Part shown: in pieces, positions 14,973 to 35,350 of the stretch
How the letters are laid out: every line of letters begins with the position of its first letter
How positions within the stretch are numbered: position 1 is the stretch's first letter
Source of the DNA: ANME-2 cluster archaeon
GTDB taxonomy: Archaea; Halobacteriota; Methanosarcinia; Methanosarcinales; Methanocomedenaceae
NCBI GenBank assembly: GCA_014237145.1
Contig: JAAXOC010000086.1
Location: 1 to 35,350, forward strand
Direction: 5' to 3'
Length of the DNA: 35,350 nt
The notes under the pieces: model-generated
Told to the model about the DNA's origin: nothing
The model's database searches: none
Seen by the model: the letters and a program-made list of their open reading frames with translations, nothing else
Translations under genes and position numbers: made by a program

Positions 14973-15958
14973 AACATCAATCATCTGCAAACCCACTACT
15001 TCAATCCCCCTTAATAACACAAACCAATGCAGTCTTAATGTCCCGCTTCTGCTCATTGAGCCTCCGCAGGAAATAACCCAGCCAGCCCTTGCCATAGGGT
15101 ATATAACCACAGACCTTATACCCCTCCCCTGCCAGTTCCTCTTTTCGTTTGTCATGTGCCCCCATCAGCATCTGGAACTCGAAATTCCGGGGGTGTTCCT
15201 TGTTCAGTTGTATGGCCAGTTCAATAAGTTCATCATCATGGGTTGCCACTGCAATAAGTTCAAGTCCCCCCTCCCTGAACAACATCTCCAACGGGTCTGC
15301 ATAGACTTTTCTAATATCTTCATGCCTTTTAATGGCTATATCAGCCGGTTCGTTATATGCACCTTTACACAAACGTATCTTAGCGCCCATTGCCGAGAGT
15401 TCTTTCAGGTCTTCCGGTGTCCTGAACAGGTATACCTGGATGGCAATCCCAAGGTTTTTATTTTCCTTGTAGAGATGTTTGTAGATATCAATGATCTGCT
15501 GGGTATGTGTACTACCTTCCATATCCATCCATACAAAAATGCCGAGGTCGGCTGCCTTCTTTACCAGAGGCTTTATCGTCCCGGTGCACGTTGGCACATC
15601 TTTCATGAGACCCAGCTGGGTAGGTTTGATAGATATGGCGCTGTCTATTTTTTCCTGTTTGATGCCGTTAAGCAGCCGGTTATATTCTTTAGCCGAAGCT
15701 TCAATTTCTGCGATATCCTCATTATGTTCTCCCACATGGTTGATGATACCGCTAATTCCCCGACTGTTTGCGGATTTTGCCCTTTCAACAGCATCTTCAA
15801 GGTATTCGCCGGCAACCCAGCGTTTTGCCAAGTGTATCAGGATTCCCATATTATCTCCCATACTAAAATATTTATTATAACTTGTTAAACTTTGTGGTTG
15901 TATTTACTCGAAGGCGTATAATTTCTAACTGATTTACATCCGTCCCAAGCTGCCAGTA
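14973..15958 (-). repeat. segmental duplication, left copy (proline dehydrogenase gene plus upstream region)
   Basis: Bases 14973-15958 match ~22719-23700 in the same orientation. The match covers the whole proline dehydrogenase-like gene, about 20 bp downstream of its stop and about 95 bp upstream of its start (shared words such as GCGTATAAT and TCTAACTGATTTACA). The two coding copies are about 89% identical in protein by hand count (31 differences in 286). Confidence 0.85.
15001..15849 (-). CDS. proline dehydrogenase-family protein, copy 1 (substrate residues kept)
   Basis: This is a TIM-barrel, FAD-dependent proline dehydrogenase-like protein, which would oxidise proline or a similar imino acid to the pyrroline. 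Motifs along the barrel (numbered from the first ATG at 15861): SIKPTQLG with Lys79, MDMEGS at 112-117, IQVYLFRT, RLCKGAYNEP, VATHDD, FQMLMG, YIPYG and the last-helix pair Arg266-Arg267 in FLRRLNE. In E. coli PutA the equivalent Lys and Arg-Arg bind the proline carboxylate. I prefer the ATG at 15849, which has GGGAG five bases upstream, over the one at 15861. No pyrroline-carboxylate dehydrogenase gene is nearby, so the pathway is open. Confidence 0.85.
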   Translation of the reverse strand: MGILIHLAKRWVAGEYLEDAVERAKSANSRGISGIINHVGEHNEDIAEIEASAKEYNRLLNGIKQEKIDSAISIKPTQLGLMKDVPTCTGTIKPLVKKAADLGIFVWMDMEGSTHTQQIIDIYKHLYKENKNLGIAIQVYLFRTPEDLKELSAMGAKIRLCKGAYNEPADIAIKRHEDIRKVYADPLEMLFREGGLELIAVATHDDELIELAIQLNKEHPRNFEFQMLMGAHDKRKEELAGEGYKVCGYIPYGKGWLGYFLRRLNEQKRDIKTALVCVIKGD

Positions 15959-20917: not shown

Positions 20918-21170
20918 CTACAATCCTGCCAGTTCTTTAATCTTTTCAATAACCAGCAAGGCATCTTCACGCTTAACATCCACTTCATTATGTACCAGGT
21001 AGTCAATTACACTATCTCGCTCATTTGCAGGAATAAGGCCCTGGTCCACACTCTTCCTTACTATAGCCGCATAGGTCCTGTCAGGATAGTACATGGAGCG
21101 GGCAATCCCAAGCAGCGCATCACCCAGGGCCTGGTCCATCGGTCCCAGGGATATCCATGATTCGGTGACC
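20918..21170 (-). pseudogene. tfuA 3' remnant (C-terminal third only)
   Basis: The last ~75 codons match the C-terminus of the intact tfuA at 23892-24548: ARSMYYPDRTYAAIVRKSVD and QGLIPANERDSVIDYLVHNE compare with AKSMYYPDRTYAAMVRNSVG and QGLIPENEQDTVIDYLIHNE, ending in the identical VKREDALLVIEKIKELAGL. Upstream of about 21170 the match stops and the frame goes into unrelated sequence. The conserved TfuA core is missing, so the fragment should not work. Together with proline dehydrogenase copy 1 it marks a former duplicate of the proline dehydrogenase-tfuA segment. Confidence 0.85.
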
Positions 21171-21233
21171 GACGGCATCAGTGCCGATGACAGTAACAAG
21201 GAAAAACCGGTACAAATTCCAATTATCACTAAG

Positions 21234-21279
21234 TTATTGTGATTAACAATTATTGTGATTAACAATAACTATTAAATAC
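21234..21279 (+). promoter_or_regulatory. tandem 16-bp repeats and TATA box before the ATPase gene
   Basis: TTATTGTGATTAACAA occurs twice back to back (21234-21249 and 21250-21265) without a mismatch. Each unit contains an inverted repeat TTGT-N5-ACAA. A TATA-like ATTAAATA follows at 21271-21278, about 25 bp before the ATG at 21301, so the transcript is probably leaderless. Two adjacent identical dyads touching the BRE/TATA region look like an operator pair. Confidence 0.6.
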
Positions 21280-22718: not shown

Positions 22719-23700
22719 ATTAACATCAGTCATCTGCAAACCCACTGCTTCAATCCCCCTTAATAACACAAACCACTGCAGTCTTAATATCCCTCTTCTG
22801 CTCATTGAGCCCGTGCAGGAAATAACCCAGCCAGGCCTTCCCGTAGGGTATATAACCACAGACCTTATACCCCTCCCGGGCCAGTTCCTCTTTTTGTTTG
22901 TCATGTGTCCCCATCAGCATCTGTAACTCAAAATTCCGGGGGTATTCCTTGTTCAATTGCCTGGCCAGTTCGATAATTTCATCATCATGGGTGGCCACTG
23001 CAATAAGTTCAAGTCCCCTCTTGGCAAACAGCATCTCTAACAGGTATGCATAGGCTTTTCTAATATCCTCATGCTTTTTAATGGCTATATCAGCAGGTTC
23101 ATTATATGCACCTTTACACAAACGTATCTTGGCGCCCATTGCCGAGAGTTCTTCCAGGTCTTTTGGTGTCCTGAACAGGTATGTCTGTATGGCAATTCCC
23201 AGGTTCTTATTTTCCTTGTAGAGATGTTTATAGATATCAATGATCTGCTGGGTATGGGTGCTTCCTTCCATATCCATCCATACAAAAATGCCAAAGTCAG
23301 CTGCTTTCTTTACCAAAGGCTCTATCGTCCTGGTGCACGTGGGCACATCTTTCATAAGACCCAGTTGGGTAGGGTTGATAGATATTGCGCTGTCTATTTT
23401 TTCCTGTTTGATGCCGTCCAGCAGCCGGTTATATTCTTCAGCTGAAGCTTCTATCTTTGCGATATCCTCATTATGTTCTCCCACATGGTTGATGATACCG
23501 CTAATTCCCCGATTGTTTATGAATTTTGCCCTCTCGACAGCATCTTCAAGGTATTCGCCGGCAACCCAGCGTTTTGCCAGGTGTATCAGGATTCCCATAT
23601 TATCTCCCATACTTAATTAATTATCATGACTTATTAAACTTAGTGGTTGGATTTACTCAAATGCGTATAATATCTAACTGATTTACACCCATCTTAAGGT
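22719..23700 (-). repeat. segmental duplication, right copy
   Basis: Counterpart of 14973-15958. Similarity begins near AACATCAGTCATCTGCAAAC and ends about 90 bp upstream of the proline dehydrogenase start. The remaining 190 bp up to the tfuA stop (23701-23891) show no counterpart in the left copy, and I see no gene in them. Confidence 0.85.
22750..23598 (-). CDS. proline dehydrogenase-family protein, copy 2 (substrate-binding residues replaced)
   Basis: This copy has the same length and barrel motifs as copy 1 (MDMEGS, RLCKGAYNEP, VATHDD, YIPYG), with an intact frame and the same Shine-Dalgarno before the second ATG (23598). The residues equivalent to the carboxylate clamp of known proline dehydrogenases differ: Lys79 is Asn (ISINPTQLG), and Arg266-Arg267 are His-Gly (FLHGLNE). 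Residues thought to hold FAD or shape the barrel are mostly unchanged. It lies 281 bp downstream of tfuA on the same strand. It may act on another substrate, bind flavin without this activity, or be an early stage of decay. Confidence 0.8.
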   Translation of the reverse strand: MGILIHLAKRWVAGEYLEDAVERAKFINNRGISGIINHVGEHNEDIAKIEASAEEYNRLLDGIKQEKIDSAISINPTQLGLMKDVPTCTRTIEPLVKKAADFGIFVWMDMEGSTHTQQIIDIYKHLYKENKNLGIAIQTYLFRTPKDLEELSAMGAKIRLCKGAYNEPADIAIKKHEDIRKAYAYLLEMLFAKRGLELIAVATHDDEIIELARQLNKEYPRNFELQMLMGTHDKQKEELAREGYKVCGYIPYGKAWLGYFLHGLNEQKRDIKTAVVCVIKGD

Positions 23701-23891: not shown

Positions 23892-24548
23892 TTACAACCC
23901 AGCCAGTTCTTTTATCTTTTCAATAACCAACAAGGCATCTTCACGCTTAACATCCACTTCATTGTGAATCAAGTAATCAATGACAGTATCCTGCTCATTT
24001 TCAGGAATAAGGCCCTGTCCCACACTGTTCCTTACCATAGCCGCATAGGTCCTGTCAGGATAATACATCGACTTAGCCGCCTCAAGCAGCATATCGCTCT
24101 GGTGCTGGTCGATAATTCCTTCTTCCACAGCAAATCCAAGGGTTGTCCTCATATTGACCAGCGGGACCGACAGCGGTTCAAGCGTCTCCGGATGGAACGT
24201 GACAGCCACCTCGTCATCTGATTCCACAACCCCGTCGCGGTACCACTCATATATCCGCCCCACCCCTATAATGCCGTAAGTATCAAGTTCAGATGCCCTC
24301 AGTGCCCCCATGCTGCAGCCACCGACCACGGTAACCCCTGCCTTTATTGCACGGATTATCTCCCTGTGGGCCACTGCTGCCCTGTCAAAAAATATGCCGT
24401 CAATGATGCCTATGATGTCAGGACCCCCTTTATCCACCAGGATATTGATATCATTTCTTTTTACAGGCGGCCGGTAGTCAGCATCAAGCAACGACCCTGC
24501 TTCCTCCCAGCTAAGGCTGGTTCCGGTAAAGACCACAATCTCTGTCAT
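23892..24548 (-). CDS. tfuA: TfuA-related McrA-glycine thioamidation protein
   Basis: TfuA works with YcaO to turn the glycine of McrA into thioglycine, probably by supplying sulfide. The protein opens IVVFTGTSLSWEEAGSLLDA and has the family core GPDIIGIIDGIFFDRAAVAHREI (about 52-75) and GVTVVGGCSMGALRASELDT (about 82-101). The 218-residue length is normal. The start overlaps the ycaO stop in an ATGA-like junction (24545-24548), showing one transcript and coupled translation. The last third is also present as a remnant at 20918-21170. Confidence 0.9.
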   Translation of the reverse strand: MTEIVVFTGTSLSWEEAGSLLDADYRPPVKRNDINILVDKGGPDIIGIIDGIFFDRAAVAHREIIRAIKAGVTVVGGCSMGALRASELDTYGIIGVGRIYEWYRDGVVESDDEVAVTFHPETLEPLSVPLVNMRTTLGFAVEEGIIDQHQSDMLLEAAKSMYYPDRTYAAMVRNSVGQGLIPENEQDTVIDYLIHNEVDVKREDALLVIEKIKELAGL

Positions 24549-27653: not shown

Positions 27654-28076
27654 ATGAAGGATACTGATATAAAAAAGAGCATTAAATACCGAAGCAAGAT
27701 CCAGCGTCTGACCCGTTTGTTCAACAGCAGGAAAGCCGAACTTGCTGCCGGATACCAGGGTTACCATGAACTGTCAGGGTTTATTGACCAATGCCAGCGA
27801 TGGGGTATCACGGACCGGGGACAGGAGAAGTCCCTTGACGACTGGATCGACCTGCTTGAGCGCTGGCCTTTTGTGGGGGGTGCTCCTACCGGAACGCTGG
27901 CCCATCACCAGAGGCAGAAGACCATGGCAAGGGAACAATACAAATGTACCATGTGCGGCCGCCCGGCAGAGGAAGTGCACCATAAGGTCCCAAGGTCAAA
28001 AGGTGGTAAGAACGATTCCGGTAATCTTGTTGTACTGTGCAGGGAGTGCCATGAAATGCTGCACAGGAAAAGGTAA
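27654..28076 (+). CDS. HNH endonuclease-domain protein
   Basis: The C-terminal half is an HNH domain: Cys98/Cys101 (CTMC), His109-His110 (EVHHKVPRSKGGKN), Asn124 in DSGNLVVLC, and Cys129/Cys132-His133 (CRECH). The N-terminal ~90 residues are helical and basic, with a repeated Tyr/Trp pattern, and may bind DNA. The protein stands alone, with no intron, toxin or phage genes around it, and its gene has a short leader without a Shine-Dalgarno. A DNA repair or processing role is as likely as a mobile one. Confidence 0.85.
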   Translation: MKDTDIKKSIKYRSKIQRLTRLFNSRKAELAAGYQGYHELSGFIDQCQRWGITDRGQEKSLDDWIDLLERWPFVGGAPTGTLAHHQRQKTMAREQYKCTMCGRPAEEVHHKVPRSKGGKNDSGNLVVLCRECHEMLHRKR

Positions 28077-30777: not shown

Positions 30778-31869
30778 TCAGTGGTCTAAATACTGATCCC
30801 TGAACTCAGCGAATCTATCCTCTGATATAGCTGTCCTGGCCCCGGTCATAAGGTCCTGCAGGAAGTGCACATTGTGTATCGATGCCAGTCGCATAGCAAG
30901 CATTTCCGATTCCTTGAACAGGTGGTAGATATACGACCTTGAAAAGTGCCTGCATGTGTAGCATTTGCATTCATCGTCTATGGGCCTGAAGTCATCCACA
31001 AGCGCTGCTCGCCGAAGGTCTATCTGCCCGTGCCTGGTCATGGCACTCTGGTGCCGGGCATTGCGTGTTGGAAAGGCACTATCAAATATATCCACGCCAA
31101 GGTATATGGAATCCAGCAGCTCTACAGGCGAGCCCACACCCATTAAGTACCTGGGCTTATCCTCTGGTATCATTGGTAAGTTCAACCTGATGGTTTCATG
31201 CATGACCTCTTTTGGTTCACCTATACTCAGTCCCCCAATCCCGTAACCATCGAAATCCATCCCAACCAGGCGCTCAGCACATTCCTCCCTCATATCCGGC
31301 AGGGTCCCGCCCTGAAGTATGGCAAATACCAGCTGCTCATCATTACATCTTGAATCAAGACTTCGCTGTGCCCAGTTCACTGTCCGGCAGACCGATTCCC
31401 GTATCTCATCACGGTTGCTGCCCCAGGGTGGGCAGTCGTCCAGCACCATAGCCACATCAGAACCCAGGGCACCCTGTATCTCCATGCACAGTTCTGGTGT
31501 GTACATGTATCGCTTTCCGTCCCTGGAATTCATATAATTGATACCCTGGTTGTTCAATTTGAACTTGAACTCCTTACGCAATATCTGGAATCCACCGCTG
31601 TCAGTGAAGATGGCACCGTCCCACCCCATGAACCTGTGCAGTCCACCCGCATTTTGTATCAGCTCATGACCAGGCCCCAGGTGCAGGTGGAAGGCATTAC
31701 TGATAATGGCCTGGGTACCCGTATCCCTTAGTTCGGTTGGGGTCAGCGTTTTGACAGTTGCCTTGGTTGCCACTGGCATGAAAGCGGGGGTATCCACAAC
31801 CTGGTGGGCGGTTGTAAGTCTTCCCTGCCTGGCACCGGACACGGTATCCTGGTGAACTACCTCAAACAT
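30778..31869 (-). CDS. tgt: queuine tRNA-ribosyltransferase, bacterial type
   Basis: Tgt swaps guanine 34 of GUN-anticodon tRNAs for preQ1 (bacteria) or queuine. The 363-residue protein has FTDSGGFQ (88-95, Asp90 base-binding), LDDCPP (143-148), LQGG (185-188), GIGGLSIGE (210-218), VDIFDSAFPTRNAR (259-272, containing the nucleophile Asp) and the zinc site Cys301, Cys303, Cys306 and His332. Archaeal archaeosine enzymes are longer, with a C-terminal PUA part; this one has the bacterial length. Cys146 in DDC equals the preQ1-pocket Cys of bacterial enzymes, as I recall. The start overlaps the queA stop by 8 bp. Confidence 0.92.
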   Translation of the reverse strand: MFEVVHQDTVSGARQGRLTTAHQVVDTPAFMPVATKATVKTLTPTELRDTGTQAIISNAFHLHLGPGHELIQNAGGLHRFMGWDGAIFTDSGGFQILRKEFKFKLNNQGINYMNSRDGKRYMYTPELCMEIQGALGSDVAMVLDDCPPWGSNRDEIRESVCRTVNWAQRSLDSRCNDEQLVFAILQGGTLPDMREECAERLVGMDFDGYGIGGLSIGEPKEVMHETIRLNLPMIPEDKPRYLMGVGSPVELLDSIYLGVDIFDSAFPTRNARHQSAMTRHGQIDLRRAALVDDFRPIDDECKCYTCRHFSRSYIYHLFKESEMLAMRLASIHNVHFLQDLMTGARTAISEDRFAEFRDQYLDH

Positions 31870-32941
31870 GTTTTCCCTCGTTATTGTTCAATATAAACAT
31901 AGCATCACCAAAACTGTAGAACCTGTATCCGGTATCGATGGCCTCCATGTATGCGTTCATAATTGTCTCCTTGCCTGCATAGGCACTGACAAGCATCAAT
32001 AGTGTGGACTTTGGCAGGTGGAAATTTGTGATAAGACCGGACATGGGTGTTTTAAATTTATAAGGAGGATAGATAAAAGAGTTGCTCCACCCCTCTGATG
32101 GCAATATACTTCCATCCTCCCATGCTGCACTTTCAAGGGAGCGCACCGAAGTCGTGCCTACAACAATAATTCTTCCTTCCCGCAATATGGTTCCATTGAT
32201 GGCATCGGCGGCAGCCCGGTCTATGATATAGTACTCGGACTCCATGATGTGTTCTTCCACATCCTCACAACGTACAGGCATGAACGTACCCACACCCACA
32301 TGCAGGGTGATGAAGACCAGCCTGACTCCCATCTCTTTGAGTCGGGACAATATCCCGGATGTGAAGTGCAGCCCTGCAGTGGGTGCGGCTATGGAACCCT
32401 CATGCCTGGAATATATTGTCTGGTACCGCTCATTATCGTCAAGTTGCTCTTTGATATAAGGTGGAACTGGCATGGCACCTATATTCTGCAGGTGAAATTC
32501 AAATGCACCATTGCACTGGAACTTAATATTGTAACGGTGCCCGGTATGTGTGTCTATCCGCTCAATTACCGTGCCCTTTACCGTGCCATCTGCTATGTCC
32601 TTTGCCGTGCCGGTAACGGCGCTGTTAAATTGAATATCGCTGCCTGGCTTTATTTTACCTCTGACCAGGCATTCATAATATTTATCTTCCAGGCGCCTGA
32701 CCAGCAGCACCTCGATTTTACCGCCAGTATCCTTGGTCCCATAGATCCTGGCAGGTATCACCCTGCTGTTGTTCATTACCAGCAGGTCGCCCGGACGTAG
32801 GAGCCGGGGAAGGTTGCTGAATTTCATGTGTTCTATGTCCTTTCCATCCAGTATCATCAACCTTGATGAATCCCTTGGTTCGACCGGGTGCTGGGCGATC
32901 ATCTCCTTTGGCAGCTGGTAATCAAAATCAGAGAGTTTCAT
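31862..32941 (-). CDS. queA: S-adenosylmethionine:tRNA ribosyltransferase-isomerase
   Basis: QueA transfers the ribosyl part of SAM to preQ1-tRNA, giving epoxyqueuosine. The protein opens MKLSDFDYQLPKEMIAQHPVEPRDSSRLM and contains VMNNSRVIPARI (about 53-64), SIAAPTAGLHFT (about 178-190), FITLHVGVGTFMPV and the C-terminal YRFYSFGDAMFI (about 337-348), all QueA signatures. The frame is open to 33037, but the ATG at 32941 has GGGGA five bases upstream and gives the family start at 359 residues. A TATA-like AAAATATATA at 33071-33080 implies a leader of about 100 bases. QueA is a bacterial enzyme, rare in archaea. Confidence 0.93.
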   Translation of the reverse strand: MKLSDFDYQLPKEMIAQHPVEPRDSSRLMILDGKDIEHMKFSNLPRLLRPGDLLVMNNSRVIPARIYGTKDTGGKIEVLLVRRLEDKYYECLVRGKIKPGSDIQFNSAVTGTAKDIADGTVKGTVIERIDTHTGHRYNIKFQCNGAFEFHLQNIGAMPVPPYIKEQLDDNERYQTIYSRHEGSIAAPTAGLHFTSGILSRLKEMGVRLVFITLHVGVGTFMPVRCEDVEEHIMESEYYIIDRAAADAINGTILREGRIIVVGTTSVRSLESAAWEDGSILPSEGWSNSFIYPPYKFKTPMSGLITNFHLPKSTLLMLVSAYAGKETIMNAYMEAIDTGYRFYSFGDAMFILNNNEGKHV

Positions 32942-33070
32942 TGCAGTCCCCGAATAGAACATAATATGTTTTAACCTTTCTGCGCCAGGAGCCTTGCAAG
33001 TTAATCCAATTAAGGGGAGCATTTTCTTGTCAATCAAATTGTCCTATGTGGCTTAAAACACCACATGAAT

Positions 33071-33080
33071 TATATATTTT
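33071..33080 (-). promoter_or_regulatory. TATA-like element of the queA-tgt operon
   Basis: The minus strand reads AAAATATATA between the sarcinarray-type gene and queA. With normal spacing, transcription would start near 33046-33050, about 105 bases before the queA ATG. I looked at this leader for a preQ1 riboswitch-like pattern and saw none I could defend. Confidence 0.35.
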
Positions 33081-33201: not shown

Positions 33202-33795
33202 TCAGTTCCGTCTTGCCATCACCACAAGTGCAATCCCCAGCAGTGCACTCGCCGCCCCGAACCCTGGCGACCCCTGGGAGGGGGGCTGGTTCGTGGACGA
33301 GGGGTCGGTGGCAGTGCGGGTGGGGACGGGGCCTGAGTAGTGTTCGTCAAGGATATAGGGGTTGGCGATAGTATACTGAACCCTGAGATTATTATTTATT
33401 TCTTTATTAAAAATAACGATAACATTAATTGGAACGCGACCACCTGTCCATTTACCGTTCGGTGCAATTGTCCATGTATAGACTTTTGTCCAACCAGGTT
33501 CTAAATCATATTCAGATACCCATTCATCAAAATTACTTGGACCTGAAATCACATCAAATGACTTTGTTACTCCAGGTTCATATAATTGCATATCAACAAA
33601 ACCGGCAATCTTTGAAGTAACTTCAACTTTAACTACTATGGGTTCATCAATTTTAATCTCTAAATCATTTACAGTAGCAGGTTCATCATTGCACCATGCA
33701 ATTGCTTTACCATAATCATTTTCTGCAGCATTACCGTTTGGAATCAATATAAAAATTAAAACCAAGAAAATTATTAATTTACCAATTTTTTTCAT
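33202..33795 (-). CDS. sarcinarray-type surface protein with PGF-CTERM sorting signal
   Basis: The protein has an N-terminal signal peptide (KLIIFLVLIFILIPNGNAA) and a beta-rich domain (~25-145) with phrases typical of the Methanosarcina sarcinarray family: VVKVEVTSKIAGFVDMQLYE, PGVTKSFDVISGPS and TWTIAPNGKWTGG. It then has a Pro/Ser/Thr linker (TRTATDPSSTNQPPSQGS) and the C-terminal signal PGF followed by a hydrophobic stretch and RRN. PGF-CTERM proteins are cut by archaeosortase A and linked to a lipid at the cell surface. It starts two bases before the stop of the upstream gene, so both are likely co-transcribed. Confidence 0.8.
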   Translation of the reverse strand: MKKIGKLIIFLVLIFILIPNGNAAENDYGKAIAWCNDEPATVNDLEIKIDEPIVVKVEVTSKIAGFVDMQLYEPGVTKSFDVISGPSNFDEWVSEYDLEPGWTKVYTWTIAPNGKWTGGRVPINVIVIFNKEINNNLRVQYTIANPYILDEHYSGPVPTRTATDPSSTNQPPSQGSPGFGAASALLGIALVVMARRN

Positions 33796-33796
33796 T

Positions 33797-35350
33797 TTAC
33801 CATCCTTCTGATTCTTCTAAAAATGGATTTGGATTTTCTGCTGTTGGCTTATCTCCTACACCCATAATTTTTCCAGAGGGGACCGCTAAAAATGTACCTG
33901 TCAAAAATGAAAAAGTAATTGGGGAATTATCTCCAATTATCCTATTAGTAGTAGGATCCCTTATTGGATCTATTCTTCGTTTATATATCTGCGCTTCATG
34001 CCCAAACATTGGATTCGGATGCACCTCATTATCAACATCCAGAACTGTAAATTCCACAATCTCCCCCTCAACTTCTATCATCCACGAATTAACTGTACAG
34101 ATCCACGGATTCATTGAAGGAAGTACATACGCCCCAGTTGATCCCAACAAGTTAATGTTCCTCAATTTCAGAGTATAGAACGACTCACCGGGATATGGTT
34201 CCATAGGGTCAAGATAATCCGGCTCCATATCCACACCCAGCGTCACATTCTCCTCCCAGTAAGCAAGATCATCCACATCATACTTTGACCCATTGTCTCG
34301 CACATGCTCTGCCCTCATGGTCAGGCCAATAGGAAAACACAGCGTAGACTTTAACAGACTGGCACCGTTATTATTTGCTTCCCGCACATCGTCTGCCGAT
34401 TCATTGAATTTCTCATCTATCTGCTCGTCAATATTCTCTGCCGCAGCCATATACTGCTCATTCACCTGGTACAGCACCTCATCCACATACCACTCCCGCA
34501 CTTGACTGATGGTTTTGGCACTGCAACTGGAATACTTCCCAGCGCTATAGTATCTGGACTTATCCACATACCTGCTCTGGTTCGCCTCGATCTTGTTCGT
34601 AAGGTCAATAGCAGTTGCCTGCATGGCATCAGCAGGATTGGGATACTCCATATAATTAATGTCCGGGCTCAGGTGCACATCACTTCGTATCTGCCAGGTA
34701 ATCTCATCCACCGCATACCTGGCCTCAGTCTCTAACCAGCCCGATGCAGTCACATCAAAAGTCCTGGGATCATAATTATCGCCATCCAAACCCATGTTCT
34801 TAACATTTGACTCCACATTGGGGTCAAAGGTATCGCTCTTATAGCTGTCATATGCCTCCTCTAGACCAGTGTCAGTATGTGCGACCACATAATCCACATC
34901 CTTCGAAGTATATGCGTCGTCAATATCATTGCCTGTGGAGATGGTTGTTCCGGCATAATTCAACGGAATAGAGGTCTTCGAATTCTCCTTTGCCTTCAGT
35001 GTAACAGTTACCCTATCCTCCCTGGTATCAATAGTCGTCTTATCGTTATGCTCGAGCCGTTGACATATACTAGGAACACCATTCTTAATACAGCCATATT
35101 CCACCCGATAATAATGCCGCCATACATGCTCCCTGGTCCATGTAACTTCCCATATCTCACCATAAAGATTTCCAGGAACATCTGCATCCCTCGGAACAGT
35201 CCCCACCTGGCTCATACTATCAGGCTCACCCCAGCTATCTATCGAGTGACTACTCTCATACCCGTCATGGTTCCCGAGTACAGTTGTCACTTGCCTATCA
35301 ATTCCAGTGGCAAGAGTTGTTGAATATACCTGGGGAATGATGTCCTGTAT
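33797..35350 (-). CDS. large unknown protein, 5' end outside the window
   Basis: The frame is open to the window edge (upstream of 35290 it continues QDIIPQVYSTTLATGIDRQ without a stop), so at least 517 C-terminal residues are seen and the true start is beyond 35350. The text is acidic and rich in Tyr, Trp, Asp and Asn, with long helical parts (EQYMAAAENIDEQIDEKFNE) and beta-like parts (GESFYTLKLRNINLLGSTGA). I see no membrane helix or sorting signal at its C-terminus (ending FLEESEGW). I do not recognise the family; a cell-surface or pilus-related role is suggested only by the adjoining PGF-CTERM gene. Confidence 0.7.
   Translation of the reverse strand: MQDIIPQVYSTTLATGIDRQVTTVLGNHDGYESSHSIDSWGEPDSMSQVGTVPRDADVPGNLYGEIWEVTWTREHVWRHYYRVEYGCIKNGVPSICQRLEHNDKTTIDTREDRVTVTLKAKENSKTSIPLNYAGTTISTGNDIDDAYTSKDVDYVVAHTDTGLEEAYDSYKSDTFDPNVESNVKNMGLDGDNYDPRTFDVTASGWLETEARYAVDEITWQIRSDVHLSPDINYMEYPNPADAMQATAIDLTNKIEANQSRYVDKSRYYSAGKYSSCSAKTISQVREWYVDEVLYQVNEQYMAAAENIDEQIDEKFNESADDVREANNNGASLLKSTLCFPIGLTMRAEHVRDNGSKYDVDDLAYWEENVTLGVDMEPDYLDPMEPYPGESFYTLKLRNINLLGSTGAYVLPSMNPWICTVNSWMIEVEGEIVEFTVLDVDNEVHPNPMFGHEAQIYKRRIDPIRDPTTNRIIGDNSPITFSFLTGTFLAVPSGKIMGVGDKPTAENPNPFLEESEGW

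Follow-up and report, generated by a model that had tools for sequence, protein, structure and literature searches.

The window analysed here is a stretch of 35,350 nucleotides from an ANME-2 cluster archaeon (contig JAAXOC010000086.1). It carries queA (31862..32941, minus strand), which encodes an S-adenosylmethionine (SAM):tRNA ribosyltransferase-isomerase of 359 amino acids counted from a conserved ATG, and tgt (30778..31869, minus strand), which encodes a bacterial-type tRNA-guanine(34) transglycosylase of 363 amino acids. The two genes overlap by 8 bases (31862-31869), with the start of tgt lying inside queA. The queA open frame is extendable upstream as far as a TTG at 33037; we took the ATG at 32941 as the start because conservation with three congeners fits that codon. 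In profile searches, QueA scored 434.9 bits against NF001140 (frame from 32965; cut-off 324) and 396.9 bits against TIGR00113 (cut-off 267.45), and a Pfam search gave 416.1 bits to PF02547. Alignment and its relatives in the PDB (1yy3, 1vky and 1wdi) point the same way. The match is full length and above the curated equivalog cut-off, and catalysis on preQ1-tRNA is predicted. Tgt has a single TGT domain (PF01702, 470.2 bits in the Pfam search) and 2ash as its nearest PDB sequence; it scored 446.7 bits against TIGR00430, the tRNA guanosine(34) transglycosylase model (cut-off 306.75), and only 145.7 bits against the archaeal TgtA model (cut-off 350).

The Tgt zinc set C301/C303/C306/H332, the pocket residue Cys146 and the GGLSIGE loop are invariant in all ten archaeal copies that we aligned. 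An earlier note, made from the letters of this DNA, had described a bacterial-type Tgt with a pocket cysteine and the zinc site overlapping an intact QueA, and the family matches, the overlap and the invariant residues bear that description out. Cys146 and the bulky residue Ile216 occupy what we take to be the places of Cys158 and Val233 in the Zymomonas enzyme. According to PMC3660597, those two Zymomonas residues are tied to the use of preQ1 rather than queuine. With Cys and Ile at these places, a preQ1 pocket is therefore expected in the window Tgt. Both genes are under purifying selection, with dN/dS against three congeners of 0.18-0.28 for QueA and 0.11-0.15 for Tgt.

Inspection by eye located a proximal TATA-like box at 32960..32974 (minus strand), which places it 33 to 19 bases upstream of the ATG of queA. 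It is found in four of four congeners, two of which show a single substitution and one a single-base insertion, in agreement with the archaeal expression signal that had been proposed upstream of queA. This box would imply a nearly leaderless transcript, which fits an archaeal promoter. A distal TATA-like box (33071..33080, minus strand), also found by eye and kept in three of the four congeners, would be an alternative promoter. An Rfam search of the window returned zero matches, hence none for a preQ1 riboswitch upstream of queA, and no tRNA genes were found in the window.

The same 35 kb contig encodes A-type ATPase subunits, read from translations, and the McrA-glycine thioamidation genes YcaO and TfuA, identified by profile matches, and these mark it as archaeal DNA. 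Directly upstream of queA, a sarcinarray/MAST-domain protein and one that contains the end of DUF7286 (33202-35350, minus strand) reach the contig end. Elsewhere in the window, two proline-dehydrogenase-like proteins of 286 amino acids each (15001-15861 and 22750-23610, minus strand) share 89% identity and are a recent duplication. A frame of 115 amino acids (20918-21265, minus strand) shares 76% identity over its last 78 residues with the C-terminus of a TfuA-related protein (23892-24548), and appears to be a truncated copy derived from the same segment that was duplicated. A small HNH protein (27654-28076, plus strand) matches the HNH part of IscB weakly, at 42 bits for a cut-off of 175.

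Of 237 genomes in the class, 49 encode QueA, and all 49 belong to three families of a single order: 15 of 17 genomes in the window's own family (f1), 1 of 6 in f2 and 33 of 34 in f4, where family totals were counted from the genomes listed in the QueH search. Elsewhere in the class there were none, and family f3 had QueA or QueH in 0 of 17 genomes. In a phylum-wide sample, QueA was found in 9 of 392 genomes, all nine in the same order. The families f1 and f4 (Methanoperedenaceae) are separate within that order, and f4 includes Ca. Methanoperedens; the QueA of one f4 genome (G057) is identical to that of JAPZAV010000068.1. Among 75 genomes searched, QueH was present in 44 of the 49 with QueA and in 4 of the 26 lacking it. 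Nine genomes are discordant for the two genes, and eight of these have completeness values of 57-84%. The remaining one (G024), at 99% completeness, has QueA with neither QueH nor QueG, which counts against a uniform pathway.

Gene neighbourhoods in other archaea added several observations. In three Methanoperedenaceae genomes (L054, L055, L056), the neighbourhood of queH includes genes for a GMP-synthase-type subunit and for RaSEA, the radical SAM enzyme of archaeosine synthesis, and in one of them (L055) tgt-queA stands beside this group. A SAM hydroxide adenosyltransferase (PF01887/PF20257) is encoded upstream of queA in seven of the ten Methanoperedenaceae loci read (L049-L054, L056). On a Woesearchaeota contig (L135, 6045-8990), genes for QueG (PF08331), tgt and queA stand in a row, so that some archaea would seem to use QueG in place of QueH.

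To place the pair among its relatives, we drew on ten further archaeal QueA contigs found among the best 80 of 590 matching stretches, with patterns built from archaeal proteins; they come from Woesearchaeota, Hydrothermarchaeota, Thermoplasmatota (including a Methanomassiliicoccales bin) and others. In a quick tree of 107 rows (34 from the order, 10 from the further archaea and 63 from bacteria), a branch with an SH-aLRT of 97 has all 44 archaeal rows on one side. A careful tree of 57 rows hand-chosen from the 107 gave the archaeal branch a bootstrap of 95 and an SH-aLRT of 92. For Tgt, with Methanoperedens thinned to 11 rows and loci lacking a long enough Tgt dropped, a branch with a support of 100 separates the 32 archaeal rows from the 27 bacterial ones. 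Within the sample, archaeal QueA and bacterial-type Tgt thus form archaea-only clades apart from the bacteria, with the caveat that archaeal query patterns and the best 80 of 590 could have missed a bacterial sequence nested among archaea. The trees are unrooted and do not say which way, or how long ago, the first transfer took place.

The best explanation is that queA-tgt belongs to a long-standing archaeal lineage which the order has maintained, and is not a recent gain from bacteria. A recent bacterial transfer is not supported, given the archaea-only clades within the sample and the presence of the pair in three families of the order. The earlier note had envisaged a functional, adapted acquisition; the conserved sequence and archaeal signals uphold the functional part, and the idea of a private or recent gain is not supported. 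QueA was also found in 22 phage records, all less than 60% identical, and in 5 viral contigs; a virus-borne origin was rejected, as the trees give no call for it.

Bacterial contamination or chimeric assembly as the origin of the stretch, a concern that the earlier note had proposed to settle by QueA and Tgt phylogeny, is hardly credible. The source genome is in 118 contigs (99.95% complete, 1.92% contamination), and most genomes used here are likewise in contigs, which leaves some room for such errors. Against this stand the archaeal genes flanking the pair, the recurrence of QueA in 49 genomes of the class, including one single-contig genome (G008), and the clades of both proteins. These results confirm an intact queA-tgt pair on genuine archaeal DNA.

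We then asked what else of the pathway the source genome encodes, along lines suggested in the earlier note (queG or queH, queDCEF and the archaeal tgtA). A TGT family search returned three genes: the window Tgt, TgtA (622.7 bits to TIGR00432, cut-off 350) and ArcS (670.6 bits to NF040592, cut-off 440). With tgtA and arcS present, queuosine is predicted in addition to archaeosine, which supports the first half of the suggestion that queuosine occurs in addition to or instead of archaeosine. QueH is encoded on a contig other than the window's; in the PDB it lies closest to QueH entries such as 7lc5, scoring 118 bits against TmQueH. QueG was found in none of the 75 genomes searched, the source genome included. 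Because queH is present, queuosine is predicted and not only epoxyqueuosine. Of the queDCEF set, queC was found, on the same contig as arcS, and QueF was not. ARAGORN recognised genes for tRNA-Asn(GTT), tRNA-His(GTG) and tRNA-Asp(GTC) in the source genome and none for tRNA-Tyr.

Taken together, these observations make it likely that queA-tgt represents the half of a queuosine pathway that acts on tRNA, and that this pathway stands beside the one for archaeosine. The presence and intactness of the genes, the selection on them, their co-occurrence with queH and their clades are what was observed; the chemistry and the tRNA product are predicted from the sequences. Tgt would exchange G34 for preQ1 in tRNAs with a GUN anticodon, and QueA would add and isomerise the ribosyl part of S-adenosylmethionine to give epoxyqueuosine, which QueH would reduce to queuosine. 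In parallel, TgtA and ArcS would make archaeosine at position 15 from preQ0. Cells with both gene sets would draw on a single precursor pool to supply two tRNA positions, and the two sets would add a translation trait to uncultured methane oxidisers.

This scheme needs a supply of preQ1. We looked for QueF in 149 of the order's genomes, drawn evenly from a larger set. Matches occurred in three, and none was on an archaeal chromosome among the 149. The sole match over the cut-off lies on a contig of a Methanoperedens genome (L065, G051:C66:1-20000) that also carries genes for a UvsX-like recombinase, a DnaB-like helicase, a DNA polymerase and a clamp, together with QueC-, QueE- and FolE-like genes. 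The contig is viral, so its QueF was rejected as the missing enzyme; its gene content suggests 7-deazaguanine DNA modification. The weak matches were FolE in G046, a second match on the phage contig within the FolE-like gene, and one in G072 with a size and score like the FolE ones. The importer family QPTR (PF02592) was found in 0 of 75 genomes, and the PF12822 carrier is absent from the source genome and over the cut-off in 5 of 65 genomes. With neither QueF, QPTR nor PF12822 in the source genome, the substrate preQ1 has no known source there. From the presence of QueC, we infer that the archaea of the order with QueA make preQ0, and G046 has a QueD-QueE-FolE run.

Other organisms with QueA provide a comparison. 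In the ten other archaeal QueA genomes (among the best 80 of 590), QueF is encoded in five (G237, G241, G246, G247, G248) and QPTR in three (G242, G243, G244), so that eight of the ten have one or the other; G245 and G249 have neither, and none has both. QueF adjoins queA in L066 and L107, and QPTR lies near queA in L073 and L093. The Methanoperedenaceae genomes G238 and G240 have neither. In a control of 13 bacterial genomes with QueA, two have QueF, three have QPTR and eight have neither. A bacterial genome with neither is accordingly no rarity; the oddity in the archaea studied here is that both are missing although the cell would make preQ0. We infer that preQ1 comes either from an importer not yet tied to these genomes or from a preQ0 reductase not yet recognised.

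The first of these options, in which preQ1 is salvaged from surrounding bacteria through a carrier family not yet tied to these genomes and Tgt-QueA-QueH acts as a salvage module, has close to an even chance of being right. It is consistent with the presence of QPTR and lack of QueF in three of the ten other archaea (best 80 of 590), in two cases near queA, with the bacterial genomes that lack both families, and with PMC11130926, which reports preQ0 and preQ1 transport by several families of carriers. It has to contend with the distribution of the carriers, QPTR being missing from all 75 genomes searched and PF12822 missing from the source genome if not from all, and with loci that, as far as read, have no carrier gene clustered with queA, tgt or queH. 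Moreover, these archaea would make their own preQ0, and import of preQ1 would therefore be odd.

The second option, that the archaeon reduces its own preQ0 by an enzyme unrelated to QueF, is the less likely of the two. It would draw on preQ0 made in the cell, as the QueC genes and the QueD-QueE-FolE run indicate, and it agrees with the failure to find QueF on any archaeal chromosome in the 149 genomes. The QueF genes of five of the ten other archaea (best 80 of 590) argue that preQ0 reduction belongs to the archaeal pathway elsewhere. However, the neighbours of queA, queH and queC, read for a reductase, belong only to general families such as FMN reductase and nitroreductase, and we know of no second kind of preQ0 reductase. 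The PF01887 SAM hydroxide adenosyltransferase was rejected as the missing reductase because of the known chemistry of that enzyme. The fuller proposal, that these methane-oxidising Methanosarcina relatives make queuosine alongside archaeosine from their own preQ0 through an unrecognised non-QueF reductase, is for now rather doubtful. The gap points either to a new nitrile reductase or to archaeal dependence on bacterial neighbours for a tRNA base.

The same gap could mean that the pair no longer makes queuosine and that Tgt and QueA persist because they act on a different base or substrate or have a different role. We regard this as improbable, given the conserved pocket and zinc residues, the purifying selection and the tracking of the pair with queH.

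How does this pathway compare with known systems? Tgt, QueA and QueH match the families of the bacterial queuosine pathway at curated or structural level. That pathway has QueF, and QueG or QueH, whereas here QueF and QueG were not found and the proteins form archaeal clades. The archaeosine pathway (TgtA, ArcS, RaSEA) has preQ0 and the TGT fold in common with it, and TgtA and ArcS occur in the same genome; it differs in that position 15 is modified from preQ0 and QueA is not used. The QPTR/YhhQ module for preQ1 salvage likewise combines QueA and Tgt in the absence of QueF, an arrangement seen in G242, G243 and G244, but QPTR is missing from the 75 genomes here and the cell would make its own preQ0.

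The two modifications are still commonly divided by domain: PMC13329287 (July 2026) assigns queuosine to Bacteria and Eukarya and archaeosine to Archaea. The earlier note had likewise supposed that archaea normally do without QueA. PMC8204110 (2021) already reports QueA, QueH and Tgt in 34 archaeal genomes, from DPANN and some Methanosarcinales. These are the same three enzymes, and Methanosarcinales, named in the legend of its Figure 4, is the order to which the relatives of Ca. Methanoperedens belong. The main text of that paper mentions neither QueF nor preQ1. The core observation is thus known; in our searches of open-access PubMed Central papers, and judged against the main text of PMC8204110, the preQ1 gap and the clade structure appear unpublished. 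What our analysis adds to the account in that text is the pair beside TgtA and ArcS in one genome, the archaea-only clade and the lack of a known preQ1 source. Set against these systems, the pair is part of an under-noticed archaeal queuosine pathway, built of ordinary parts and holding one real puzzle, where its preQ1 comes from.
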